From: an uncultured Dehalococcoidia bacterium
GTDB lineage: Bacteria; Chloroflexota; Dehalococcoidia; Lucifugimonadales; GCA-2712585
Assembly (NCBI GenBank): GCA_958295715.1
Contig: OY282371.1
Location: 1,249,183-1,313,182 of the forward strand
Reading direction: 5' to 3'
DNA length: 64,000 bases
Shown: positions 55,617 through 60,553 of the stretch, piece by piece
Position numbering within the stretch: the stretch's first letter is position 1
How the letters are laid out: each line of letters begins with the position of its first letter
Program-made: the position numbers and the translations under genes
Notes under the pieces: model-generated
What the model saw: the letters and a program-made list of their open reading frames with translations, nothing else
What the model was told of the DNA's origin: nothing
Database searches by the model: none

Positions 55617-55844
55617 CTATCCTATAAGCCTTTGAAGGAGTATCGCCACGCTTGACGCGCTGAAAACGGACCCCACCAGAATCCCCACCATCCACTTAAT
55701 CAAACGGCCTTCCATCTGGTAAATGGTGGCTTTCAGTTCAGCCAGGTCCTCCTTGGTGGCGTAATGTTGGAGCAAGCGAGTCAAGCGAACTTCCAACTCC
55801 GCCAAGTCGGTCTTGGTAATGTGTCGCTCACCCACCGCAGCCAT
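55617..55844 (-). CDS. Small coiled-coil protein with C-terminal membrane helix
   Basis: A 75-residue protein starting at ATG 55844 behind AGGTGG. Residues 8-50 are charged heptad-like helix (KTDLAELEVRLTRLLQHYAT, KEDLAELKATIYQMEGRLIK), and residues 51-75 are one hydrophobic helix. It resembles the widespread DUF1640/coiled-coil-TM small proteins. It lies 81 bases upstream of comEA on the same strand, but cotranscription is uncertain. No function is assigned. Confidence 0.7.
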   Translation of the reverse strand: MAAVGERHITKTDLAELEVRLTRLLQHYATKEDLAELKATIYQMEGRLIKWMVGILVGSVFSASSVAILLQRLIG

Positions 55845-55919
55845 GATTCCCACCTCTCTCTTATCGGTTGCTTATAGATTGATGCTAGCCAGTCGTGCAG
55901 CGACTGTCAAGAAGCCATG

Positions 55920-55982: not shown

Positions 55983-56921
55983 TTGAGTCCTAAATCATAC
56001 GCCTTCTTACACGGTGAGTTTGTTCCACTAGAGGAAGCTAAGGTCGGCATAGATACCCACGCCCTACACTACGGCACCGGCGTTTTCGAGGGAATCCGTG
56101 GCAACTGGAACAAGGACAAGGAGACACTCTACGTCTTCCGCCTCCGAGAGCACTATGAGCGGATGGCCCAGGGATGCCGGATGCTTATGCTCGACATCCC
56201 CTACTCCACCGATGACCTGTGCGACATTACCGTGGAGTTGATAGCCCGATGCGGCTACAAGGAGGACATCTACATCCGGCCTCTGGCCTACAAGAGCGCC
56301 CGGCACGTGGCCAACCTGAAGCTGAATGAGTTGGCGAGCGACTTCTGCCTAATGACCATCCCCTTCGGCAACTACCTCGACACCGACGCCCTCCGGTGCT
56401 GCACGTCCACGTGGCGACGGCCCGACGACCGGTCTATTCCCCCGCGGTTCAAGTTCACCGGGGTTTACATCAACAGCATACTGGCCAAGACCGAGGCGGC
56501 CCTGGCGGGCTTTGACGAGGCCATCCTGTTGAACAGCGACGACAACGTGTCGGAGGGCGCCGGGGAGAATCTATTCATGGTGGTTAACGGCAAGCTCTAC
56601 ACGCCGCCTTTGGGGGATAGCGTGCTGCCGGGAATAACCCGGAGCGCCGTAATGGAGTTGGCCAGGGAGGAGTTCGGGCTTGAGGTGGCGGAAGCCCACA
56701 TTAGCCGCACGGAGTTGTACACCGCCGACGAGTGTTTCCTCACGGGAACGGCGGCTCACCTGACCCCAATGGTGGAGTTGGACAACCGGAAGATAGCCGA
56801 CGGGAAGATAGGCCCCATATCGAAGGCCCTGCGGGAGATGTACTTCAAGGTGGCCGTGGGAAACAACCCCAAGTATTTGCACTGGTGCACCCCGGTAACG
56901 TCCGAACCCGACAGCGCGTGA
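55983..56921 (+). CDS. ilvE: Branched-chain amino acid aminotransferase
   Basis: Final transamination for Ile, Leu and Val, 312 residues, fold type IV. THALHYGTGVFEGIRGNW is the N-terminal signature. IYIRPLAYKSARHV follows. The PLP lysine is expected in PRFKFTGVYINSILAKTEA, where family members read gaKaggnY. DEAILLNSDDNVSEGAGENLF is the PLP phosphate region, given here as DNVSEGAGENLF. TGTAAHLTPMVELDNRKI is near the end. TTG start. It is monocistronic behind a good promoter, 64 bases before plsY. Confidence 0.93.
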   Translation: MSPKSYAFLHGEFVPLEEAKVGIDTHALHYGTGVFEGIRGNWNKDKETLYVFRLREHYERMAQGCRMLMLDIPYSTDDLCDITVELIARCGYKEDIYIRPLAYKSARHVANLKLNELASDFCLMTIPFGNYLDTDALRCCTSTWRRPDDRSIPPRFKFTGVYINSILAKTEAALAGFDEAILLNSDDNVSEGAGENLFMVVNGKLYTPPLGDSVLPGITRSAVMELAREEFGLEVAEAHISRTELYTADECFLTGTAAHLTPMVELDNRKIADGKIGPISKALREMYFKVAVGNNPKYLHWCTPVTSEPDSA

Positions 56922-56985: not shown

Positions 56986-57588
56986 TTGGCTTTGGAAAGC
57001 ATAGGCTGGATAAGCCTTATAGCAGTGGCCTACCTGATAGGCTCGCTGCCCACGGCCTACCTCTTGACCAAGCGCCTGGCGAACGCCGACATTCGCGAGT
57101 TGGGGGACAGCAACGCCGGGGCCGCCAACGTCTACCGCAATCTGGGGGCCAGGCACGGCTTAGCCGTCGGCGCGGTGGACATTGCCAAGGGGACCTTGGC
57201 CGTGCTGCTGGCAAAGGCGTTTATAGGCGGCCAAGCCATCGAGATGACGGCCGGCCTCGCCGCCGTGGTGGGTCACAACTGGCCCTTTTACCTCCAGTTC
57301 AGGGGCGGGCGCGGCGCGGCCACCGCCTTGGGCGCGCTGATGGCCTTCATCCCCTTGGCCGGCGTCTCCGTGGGCATTGCGGCCCTGGCGATTCTGATAC
57401 TCTCCAAAAGGGTTATGATGGCCTTGACCTTCGCCTTCGTGTCCATTCCGGCGGTGGCGTGGTTCAACGGAGGAGACCTCGCGACCCTCGGCTACGCCGT
57501 CTTTCTCCCAACGGTGGTGGGCGTCAGCCACTACGTCAGCGTAAGGCAAGGCCAAGACCCCGTCGCCGAAATGCCCGAGAGGAGATGA
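56986..57588 (+). CDS. plsY: Acyl-phosphate:glycerol-3-phosphate acyltransferase
   Basis: Makes lysophosphatidic acid from acyl phosphate. A 200-residue membrane protein with about five helices. VAYLIGSLPTAYLLTKRL, LGDSNAGAANVYRNLG and VVGHNWPFYLQFRGGRGAAT are the three conserved loop motifs. The start is TTG with GAGAAAGAG upstream. Its stop abuts the next membrane-protein gene. PlsX is not in the window. Confidence 0.93.
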   Translation: MALESIGWISLIAVAYLIGSLPTAYLLTKRLANADIRELGDSNAGAANVYRNLGARHGLAVGAVDIAKGTLAVLLAKAFIGGQAIEMTAGLAAVVGHNWPFYLQFRGGRGAATALGALMAFIPLAGVSVGIAALAILILSKRVMMALTFAFVSIPAVAWFNGGDLATLGYAVFLPTVVGVSHYVSVRQGQDPVAEMPERR

Positions 57589-57996
57589 ATGCCCTTCTTC
57601 CTTGACTATATGATCCTCATCTTCCTGGCCTCCGTGGGCGTAATACAGTTGGCCGCTTTGAAGAACGGTCTCAAGGGAATCTATCTGGTCCGGCCCTCAG
57701 TCCTGAACCTTGCCCTCGCCCTGGCCCTCACCTGCGGCTCCTTTATCTGGTTCTTCACGTCGGAACCCCGGAACCTGCCCGACGACACCCTTGGCTTAGA
57801 CGGCAACCGTCAGGCCGGCTTCTATCTTATAGGCAGCGTTGGGGCGGTGGTCTTCACCCTGCTCGTAACCTCCCTTCTCCACCGCGTCTATAACGGGAAG
57901 GCCCTGCCCTCCAACGAGGCTGGGCTAGACGCCCTCCGGTCTTCCGGATACGCCACGGCGTTGAAGGGCGCCTTCATTAGGCTATGGAAGCGCTGA
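57589..57996 (+). CDS. Small membrane protein of unknown function
   Basis: A 135-residue protein with three hydrophobic segments (about residues 5-22, 39-57 and 80-98) and short charged loops; the C-terminal 35 residues are soluble and basic. I recognise no family. It starts directly after the plsY stop and overlaps the PAP2-like gene by 13 bases, so the three are one translational unit concerned with the membrane. Confidence 0.75.
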   Translation: MPFFLDYMILIFLASVGVIQLAALKNGLKGIYLVRPSVLNLALALALTCGSFIWFFTSEPRNLPDDTLGLDGNRQAGFYLIGSVGAVVFTLLVTSLLHRVYNGKALPSNEAGLDALRSSGYATALKGAFIRLWKR

Positions 57997-58574
57997 AACA
58001 AGCCGACTCCAACATCGTCATCTGGCTCAACCAGTGGGTCGGTGAATACCGGGTTTTGGACCAGGTGGTTGAGGTGGTGGTAAGCGACTACTTCACCCCC
58101 GTGACCTTGGCCCTGAGCCTGCTGTGGCTGTGGTTCGCCACCAGGGACCCGGGGAAGCGCATGACCACTCAGCGGGCCGTGATTACGGCCATCGCCTCCT
58201 TGGCCATAGCCAACCTGGTGGTGCTGATGATGAACGACTTCTACTTTCGCCCGCGCCCCTTCACGGAGATGCAGCTTAACCTGCTGTTCTACCGCCCCAC
58301 CGACTCCTCATTTCCGGCCAACCCGGCGGCCCTCTCCTTCGCCATCGCCTTCAGCATCCTACAGACCCGCCGTGGCGCCGGGGCCATCCTGCTGGGCATT
58401 GCGGCTATCTGGAGCCTTTCCCGGGTCTACGCCGGCGTTTTCTATCTTTCCGACGTGGCGGCGGGCGCGGCCATAGGGGTGACAACGGTCCTGTGCATGA
58501 ACTTCCTCCTCCGCTGGCTGGACCCGGTGCCGACGGCGGTTCTTCGCGTAGGGAAGGCCCTGCATCTGGCGTAA
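57984..58574 (+). CDS. PAP2-fold membrane protein lacking catalytic histidines
   Basis: A 196-residue protein with about five membrane helices arranged like bacterial PAP2/undecaprenyl-diphosphate phosphatases. The three PAP2 motifs can be aligned but are altered. Motif 1 (KxxxxxxRP) reads N84-DFYFRP-R91-P92, with Asn for Lys. Motif 2 (usually PSGH) reads FPANPAALSFA, with Pro114 in place of the catalytic His. Motif 3 (SRxxxxxHxxxD) reads SRVYAGVFYLSD, with Phe153 for the nucleophile His, while Ser146, Arg147 and Asp157 remain. A phosphatase reaction by the usual mechanism looks impossible. It is coupled to plsY and a small membrane protein. Confidence 0.8.
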   Translation: MEALKQADSNIVIWLNQWVGEYRVLDQVVEVVVSDYFTPVTLALSLLWLWFATRDPGKRMTTQRAVITAIASLAIANLVVLMMNDFYFRPRPFTEMQLNLLFYRPTDSSFPANPAALSFAIAFSILQTRRGAGAILLGIAAIWSLSRVYAGVFYLSDVAAGAAIGVTTVLCMNFLLRWLDPVPTAVLRVGKALHLA

Positions 58575-58633: not shown

Positions 58634-60553
58634 ATGGTCCAACTTCAGGAGCTTTTCGATAAGGTACGCCAGGAATCCGAGTCCCTGGCCTGGCAGGGTT
58701 CCTTCAAAGACTACGTGGCCATGGTCATTGAGAACCCCAAACTGTCCCGCCTCTCTCACGTGCGGATACACGACATGCTCCAGTGGGCGGGAATTGAAAG
58801 CAGGGGTGGCGTCGAAAGCTTCAAGCTCTTCGACGGGCTGTTCGGTTCCCAAAAGACCGTTCAGCGGCTATCGCAGATATTCCACGCCGCTTCCCGCATA
58901 CCGGAGGAGCGGCGGCGCATCCTGCTTCTCATGGGGCCGCCGGGCAGCGGCAAGTCCACCCTGGTTAACCTCCTGAAGCGGGGCCTTGAGCGCTACTCCG
59001 GCTCCGACGAAGGCGCCCTGTACGCCATCGCCGGCTGCCCCATGCAGGAGGAACCGCTGCACCTGGTGCCCAAGGGCCACAGGGCCCAGTTCCTCGAGAC
59101 CTACGGGTTGGAGATTGAGGGAGACCTCTGTCCCCGGTGCCGGTACAACCTCAAGAACGTCTACAAGGGGGACATCTCCCAGGTGAAGGTCAAACGGGTT
59201 GTGCTGGGCGAGTCGGACGGCGTGGGGATGGGTTCCTTCGTGGCCACCAGCCCCGAGGGGCAGAACATCGAGCGGCTGATTGGGGGGATAGACGTGGACC
59301 GCCTGGCGGAGGACAGGTTGGAGGGCGCCGGCAGGGGTCTCCGGATGGACGGGGAGTTGCAGGCCGCCAATCGCGGGGTTATGGAGTTCATCCAAATCTT
59401 CCGCTCCGACGACAAGTTCCTCACCGTTGTGCTTGGCGTGACCCAAGAGCAGATAATCAAGCTGGGCAGCTTCGGCTCCGTTTACGCCGATGAGACGATA
59501 ATCGCCCACAGCAACGAGGCGGAGTACAACAACTTCGCGGCCAACAAGGAGTCGGAGGCCCTGCTCGACCGCCTCATCATGTTGAAGGTCCCGTACACGC
59601 TGCAACGGTCCGAGGAGATAAAGATCTACCGCAAGCTGTTGGCCGACGGGCGCGGCTACGGCGTCCACCTGTCGCCGCTCACCCTTCCCGTGGTCGCCTC
59701 CATGTCCGTGATGTCGCGCTTGGAGGACGGCAGGAGCGGCTCAGGCGTGAGGGGGTCCCTGAAGGAGCGGATGGACGTTTACGACGGCCGGGTGGCGTCC
59801 CACTTCTCCAACAGCGACGACGCGCCCCTCCAGGATGAGAACTCCCGCGAGGGGATGTTCGGCCTCTCCCCCCGGTTTGTCATCAACCGCCTGGCCGACG
59901 CCGTGTCCCACGAGACGGAATGCCTCGGCCCACTGGAGGCCCTCGAGGCCCTGGTCGAGGGGCTGGTGGAGCGGGCCGGCCTGACAAAGGACGACTGGGA
60001 GCGGCTCCCCAGCCTGCTGCCGGAGGTCATCAAGAGCTACAAGGAGATGGCCGTCCGGCAGGTGCAGCAGGCCGCCACGGAACGGTTCGAGGAGTTGGCC
60101 CAGGGGCAGTTTCTGTCCTACATCGGGGGCGTCAAGGCCCACTTAATGAGCCAAACGGAGACCTCCAAGTCGAGCCCGCGCCACGACGACCAGGTCCTGC
60201 GTCGCCTTGAGGGGGCCATCAACATCCACGACTCCAAGCGCGAGTCCTTCCGGAGAGACGTGCTGAACCTGTACGAGACGCTGAGCGAGAGCGGCCATAA
60301 TCCCACCTACAGGGACTTCCCCCTGCTGAACGCCGCGATAGACCAGATGCTTCTCCTGCGGGTCAGGGAGTTGGCCTACATTCTGAGGCCCAAGCGGGAC
60401 CGGTTAGAGCAACAGGAGTCGATCCTGAAGCAACTGGTCACCAACTACGGCTACTGCGACAAGTGCGCCAAAGACTTGCTTCACTTTGCCGGGCAGACCG
60501 CCCGTGACCGGGACGTGGTGACGGTGAAGAACGGCCGGCTGGCGCGCAAGTAG
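58634..60553 (+). CDS. prkA: PrkA-type serine protein kinase / AAA protein
   Basis: A 639-residue protein starting at ATG 58634 behind GGGGAGGA. The AAA-like N-terminal domain has the P-loop LLLMGPPGSGKSTLVNLL near residue 100. A cysteine pair DLCPRCRYNL (near 175) and a later YCDKCAKDLLHFAG suggest metal binding. NRGVMEFIQIFRSDDKFLT and FNNFAANKESEALLDRL-like text (here EYNNFAANKESEALLDRLI) match PrkA. The C-terminal PrkA domain starts near 400. Usual partners YeaH and SpoVR are not adjacent. Roles elsewhere include stress, sporulation and stationary-phase signalling; the substrate here is unknown. Confidence 0.92.
   Translation: MVQLQELFDKVRQESESLAWQGSFKDYVAMVIENPKLSRLSHVRIHDMLQWAGIESRGGVESFKLFDGLFGSQKTVQRLSQIFHAASRIPEERRRILLLMGPPGSGKSTLVNLLKRGLERYSGSDEGALYAIAGCPMQEEPLHLVPKGHRAQFLETYGLEIEGDLCPRCRYNLKNVYKGDISQVKVKRVVLGESDGVGMGSFVATSPEGQNIERLIGGIDVDRLAEDRLEGAGRGLRMDGELQAANRGVMEFIQIFRSDDKFLTVVLGVTQEQIIKLGSFGSVYADETIIAHSNEAEYNNFAANKESEALLDRLIMLKVPYTLQRSEEIKIYRKLLADGRGYGVHLSPLTLPVVASMSVMSRLEDGRSGSGVRGSLKERMDVYDGRVASHFSNSDDAPLQDENSREGMFGLSPRFVINRLADAVSHETECLGPLEALEALVEGLVERAGLTKDDWERLPSLLPEVIKSYKEMAVRQVQQAATERFEELAQGQFLSYIGGVKAHLMSQTETSKSSPRHDDQVLRRLEGAINIHDSKRESFRRDVLNLYETLSESGHNPTYRDFPLLNAAIDQMLLLRVRELAYILRPKRDRLEQQESILKQLVTNYGYCDKCAKDLLHFAGQTARDRDVVTVKNGRLARK

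Follow-up and report, generated by a model that had tools for sequence, protein, structure and literature searches.

In Escherichia coli PgpB, the K97A mutant is fully active, the H163A mutant keeps 27% of activity on C55-PP and 0.09% on PGP, the S161A and D211A mutants are nearly inactive, and the nucleophile mutant H207A is inactive and strongly stabilized by phosphate (PMC7413402). According to its entry title, 8bm3 is the solved structure of PgpB H207A with a farnesyl ligand. The LpxE of Aquifex aeolicus carries an Asp for the motif-2 His and is active on three substrates (PMC6581854), and E. coli YbjG, also active, has Gly at the motif-1 Lys position. Dead PAP2 proteins are already known from vertebrates (PLPPR). 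Within the Dehalococcoidia, bcrC is reported to be widespread (PMC10284905), and SAR202 isolates do not encode peptidoglycan synthesis (PMC10444878).

Here we analyzed a PAP2 gene in a stretch of 64,000 nucleotides (the window) from an uncultured Dehalococcoidia bacterium (assembly GCA_958295715.1, contig OY282371.1, positions 1,249,183 to 1,313,182). What is new is a large bacterial clade in which the active site has been lost repeatedly and which has a near-obligate new membrane partner.

Results

The window PAP2 gene lacks the nucleophile and is under purifying selection

The gene lies at 57984 to 58574 on the plus strand, starts with ATG, and encodes 196 amino acids. Its product matched Pfam PAP2 (PF01569) at 46.7 bits, above the cut-off of 27.2, and the nearest NCBIfam model, PRK11837 (undecaprenyl-diphosphate phosphatase), at 54 bits, below the cut-off of 229. 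It was the only PAP2 match in a profile search of the window's genome. We modeled the fold with AlphaFold2, as the original prediction had proposed, and obtained a six-helix PAP2 fold (pLDDT, 96.4) that matched the PAP2 enzymes 5jki and 6ebu.

Alignment placed the motif residues where the original prediction had put them. Motif 1 (58233 to 58259, plus strand) runs from N84, at the Lys position, to R91-P92. Motif 2 (58311 to 58325, plus strand) reads FPANP (positions 110 to 114), with P114 for the His of the superfamily's PSGH/PSDH; the Ser of this motif is also gone (A112), and N113 occupies the Gly position. Motif 3 (58419 to 58454, plus strand) runs from S146-R147 to D157 and has F153 for the nucleophile His.

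Both P114 and F153 are shared with two relatives of the same genus (L003 and L004), so a sequencing error is unlikely. The dN/dS ratio (Nei-Gojobori) was about 0.18 and 0.33 for the window gene against two close relatives, with synonymous sites near saturation, and about 0.04 to 0.17 in six other nucleophile-less pairs, giving an overall range of about 0.04 to 0.33; a seventh pair had a saturated dS. Because selection is purifying, the gene is not decaying, and we rejected both decay and sequencing error. The window protein thus combines nucleophile loss with purifying selection, as expected of a PLPPR-like pseudophosphatase.

One His is lost throughout the clade and the other repeatedly

The window PAP2 gene had a match in 73 of the 98 genomes of a sample made up of its own genome and relatives of that genome. 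The tree set comprised 180 sequences after near-identical ones were dropped; 162 formed one clade (SH-aLRT 99 in a quick tree with no mixture model), and 18 BcrC/YbjG-like proteins formed its sister group. One sequence (L202, 138 bits, below the line applied to the others) was assigned to the clade before the tree was built, by its residues and partner, and the tree agrees. Of 393 genomes sampled from the class, 102 had a clade member, as did a few other Chloroflexota; named relatives of the window protein are nearly all Dehalococcoidia, including the SAR202 cluster, and no relatives were found in the viral contigs searched.

The motif-2 His (His114) was present in 0/162 clade members versus 18/18 sister proteins. 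Relatives with the same gene and both His residues, which the original prediction had named as the sign of recent decay or sequence error, were looked for among all 162 and not found; with the purifying selection, this upholds its view of a repurposed gene. The nucleophile His153, which all 18 sister proteins have, was kept in 94 of the 162 clade members and replaced in 68 by Phe, Ser, Tyr, Cys, and others, with a minimum of 14 changes of state at this position across the tree. Clade-typical residues are Y103 (161/162), N113 (154/162), and N84 (147/162), and D107 is nearly invariant, like Y103 and N113. All of S112, R91, R147, H153, and D157 were kept in 68 of the 162 members, and 65 of the 68 nucleophile-less members retained R91, R147, and D157 together. 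The most eroded sites seen (L231, L232, and L242) have His at R91, Lys at R147, and Tyr at 153, with the partner gene present.

The three substitutions that the original prediction had read jointly as lost catalysis carry different weight. N84 is widely conserved; at the other two positions conservation is partial, with P114 in 63/162 and the nucleophile lost in 68/162. As a sign of inactivity N84 fails: YbjG has Gly there and only 1 of the 18 sister proteins has Lys, so the motif-1 Lys is no mark of activity in this subfamily, and, PgpB K97A being active, we rejected its loss as evidence. Neither does P114 indicate inactivity by itself, the motif-2 His being dispensable in Aquifex LpxE and, on C55-PP, in PgpB H163A; by analogy with these enzymes, loss of this His alone is compatible with activity. 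By the same kind of analogy, the missing nucleophile (F153) should be the decisive inactivating change, unlike N84 or P114 alone. We also considered a link between P114 and His153 loss. In raw counts, 56 of 63 P114 members lacked His153 versus 12 of 99 others, but after correction for kinship the association was not significant (median P value = 0.125).

A small membrane protein accompanies the clade

The gene at 57589 to 57996 (plus strand) encodes a 135-amino-acid, 3-TM protein of an unnamed family, and its last 13 nt (57984 to 57996) are shared with the start of the PAP2 gene. The two genes were paired in 156 of 161 clade loci (154 adjacent, 2 fused). The remaining five comprise two contig edges and three loci outside the adjacency rule: in L041 the partner lies about 190 bp upstream of PAP2, L119 begins near a contig end, and in L227 the partner seems truly absent. 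Beside sister PAP2 genes the partner was found at 0 of 18 loci (17 absent, 1 contig edge). It was detected in 29 of 400 sampled Chloroflexota genomes, and the five partner genomes outside the class all had a pseudo-PAP2 nearby (5/5).

A Pfam search with the partner returned no family. Its model (pLDDT, 93.6) consists of three long helices followed by a short C-terminal part, and a PDB search with the model returned no chain at E below 1; no solved relative came up, nor any homology to known flippases. The most striking conserved stretch in alignments of its homologs is a polar loop from R61 to Q75 (57769 to 57813, plus strand; R-N-x-x-D-x-x-x-G-L-D-x-N-x-Q). Judged from charges only, the loop is predicted to face outward, which would place it extracytoplasmically, on the same side as the PAP2 site.

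Some loci depart from this arrangement. In L034 and L060, partner and pseudo-PAP2 are natural fusions in one long open frame. In two MAG contigs, L125 (Woykebacteria) and L162 (unclassified), the partner in the pair is cut to about 90 amino acids; their presence may reflect transfer or misbinning. Six partner frames (L137, L153, L195, L233, L243, and L244) gave two profile matches, which may reflect either a duplication or the splitting of one match by an insertion.

plsY is an intermittent neighbor

The original prediction had drawn an operon of plsY, the small 3-helix protein, and the pseudo-PAP2 gene, with PlsY as a possible partner. The small protein proved near-obligate, and plsY did not. 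The plsY paralog of the window (glycerol-3-phosphate acyltransferase; 56986 to 57588, plus strand; PF02660, 133.7 bits) is one of three in the genome, and just 22 of 157 clade loci have plsY upstream, scattered over the tree with at least 10 changes; on these grounds we rejected plsY coupling as a defining feature. The usual PlsY motif is GGKG, and this paralog reads GGRG. A class IV aminotransferase gene of the branched-chain type (55983 to 56921, plus strand; PF01063, 171.8 bits) is a more frequent upstream neighbor (124/157 loci). Elsewhere around the pair, a PrkA-type kinase gene follows downstream (58634 to 60550), in an order shared by just a few related loci (L003, L004, and L007), and a 78-amino-acid open reading frame on the minus strand (55617 to 55853) has one membrane stretch predicted by eye and weak Pfam matches only.

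Most host genomes probably lack peptidoglycan

FtsW/RodA was missing from 97 of the 98 genomes in the relatives sample. Across the class it was absent from 100 of 102 clade-bearing genomes versus 125 of 291 others; among genomes that encode sister proteins, 17 of 18 had it. Since it is absent from most hosts of the clade, these probably have no peptidoglycan. Seven genomes carry both the pair and FtsW/RodA, which weakens the idea that the pair arose through wall loss. The window's genome encodes one UppS and one BacA-type UppP and therefore has a carrier lipid as well as another enzyme to act on it; it gave no match to PF00953 (MraY/WecA type). Some of the bcrC genes reported for peptidoglycan-less Dehalococcoidia (PMC10284905) may belong to the pseudo-PAP2 family.

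Discussion

The reading that we favor, and to which we give an even chance, is that the window protein is a catalytically dead PAP2 protein, derived from a BcrC/YbjG-type phosphatase, that binds lipid (pyro)phosphate with its small 3-TM partner. Strong selection and the near-constant small-protein neighbor make a joint lipid-phosphate-binding complex, rather than an enzyme, probable. By analogy with known enzymes, a protein with A112, P114, and F153 should not hydrolyze lipids and may bind lipid phosphate; specifically, comparison of F153 with PgpB H207A leads us to expect no C55-PP phosphatase activity. The pocket is probably still phosphate binding, because R91, R147, and D157 are retained. 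The analysis establishes the fold, the ancestry, the lost residues, the purifying selection, the pairing of the genes, and the two natural fusions; the lack of catalysis, a physical complex, and lipid binding are inferred.

Such a protein could have arisen in two steps. The first, when the clade arose, would have been the loss of the motif-2 His, with Y103, N113, and mostly N84 gained along with the near-obligate partner; later, repeatedly and also in the window lineage, the nucleophile His would have been replaced, by Phe in the window protein. The remaining pocket would probably bind lipid phosphate or pyrophosphate without hydrolysis, most likely that of a polyprenyl carrier. More speculatively, PAP2 and partner may hold, sense, or hand over the carrier lipid in cells mostly without peptidoglycan. 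A broader idea is that the two proteins are subunits of an unrecognized membrane complex for handling or moving the polyprenyl-phosphate carrier, built from a former phosphatase and kept mainly by peptidoglycan-less bacteria; we regard it as tentative and rather unlikely.

This reading would not extend to every member. A dead pocket cannot be ascribed to the clade as a whole, because 94 of 162 members keep His153, and these may act on pyrophosphate lipids; by analogy, the 68 that keep S112, R91, R147, H153, and D157 could still do so. Phosphate binding is not universal either, because three members have also lost R91 and R147, nor is the role limited to cells without a wall, because seven pair-bearing genomes have FtsW/RodA.

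The intact residue sets in those 68 members suggest a different account, in which His153 members are C55-PP phosphatases without the general acid, activity has died in some lineages, and the window protein is on its way out. The dispensable motif-2 His of PgpB on C55-PP (H163A, 27%; PMC7413402) and the Asp of active Aquifex LpxE (PMC6581854) agree with it, as do seven genomes that encode a His153 member but no other UppP candidate. Lack of another UppP, however, was not significantly more common in His153 genomes (7/37 versus 4/34; Fisher test, P value = 0.52), leaving the idea that His153 members stand in for a missing UppP unsupported, and purifying selection in nucleophile-less lineages argues against ongoing loss of the gene. 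We consider this account unlikely.

There are two further alternatives. A lipid-groove fold with a dead site and a membrane partner, as modeled here, would suit a scramblase or flippase moving polyprenyl phosphate or phospholipid across the membrane through the old substrate groove, and C55-P flippases exist in other families (PMC9876793 and PMC12893004); the partner, however, shows no detected homology to known flippases, and we think this quite improbable. Alternatively, the partner could supply catalytic residues (for example, D65, D71, or R61 of its loop) to a redesigned phosphatase or phosphotransferase site split between two subunits. The partner does arise together with the loss of the motif-2 His, the conserved loop of the partner is polar, and Y103, N113, and D107 of PAP2 hardly vary across the clade, but the nucleophile has been variously replaced in 68 of 162 members while the partner and the other residues persist. 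Replacements so varied are easier to reconcile with a relaxed chemical constraint than with a new mechanism, and a two-subunit enzyme seems to us very doubtful.

The clade, which runs from nucleophile-retaining to nucleophile-less members, is a natural series for asking how an enzyme turns into a binding protein. Experiments are possible, since the cultivated SAR202 strain Lucifugimonas marina JH1073 (L128) has the P114/F153 form.

By profile, the nearest characterized relatives are the BcrC/YbjG phosphatases (PRK11837), which have the same fold and D-x-S-F-P before motif 2 and, like the window protein, no motif-1 Lys; unlike them, the window protein has neither catalytic His, has a near-obligate partner gene, and scores far under the PRK11837 cut-off. 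A PAP2-like fold with a small membrane subunit is also seen in the Aur1-Kei1 inositol phosphorylceramide synthase (9ivc), which the window PAP2 model matched; the window partner's model matched no PDB chain at E below 1. Aur1-Kei1 is an active transferase, unlike the expected state of the window protein. Vertebrate PLPPR/PRG proteins are PAP2 relatives with substituted catalytic residues and undetectable LPA phosphatase activity (PMC9520309), but they are neuronal, no conserved small partner of such a kind is described for them, and the likeness drawn here is one of residues. A. aeolicus LpxE (6ebu) was the second-best fold match and the best PDB sequence match to the window PAP2 protein, and the motif-2 His is replaced in both, but in LpxE the replacement is Asp, the nucleophile is kept, and the enzyme is active (PMC6581854).
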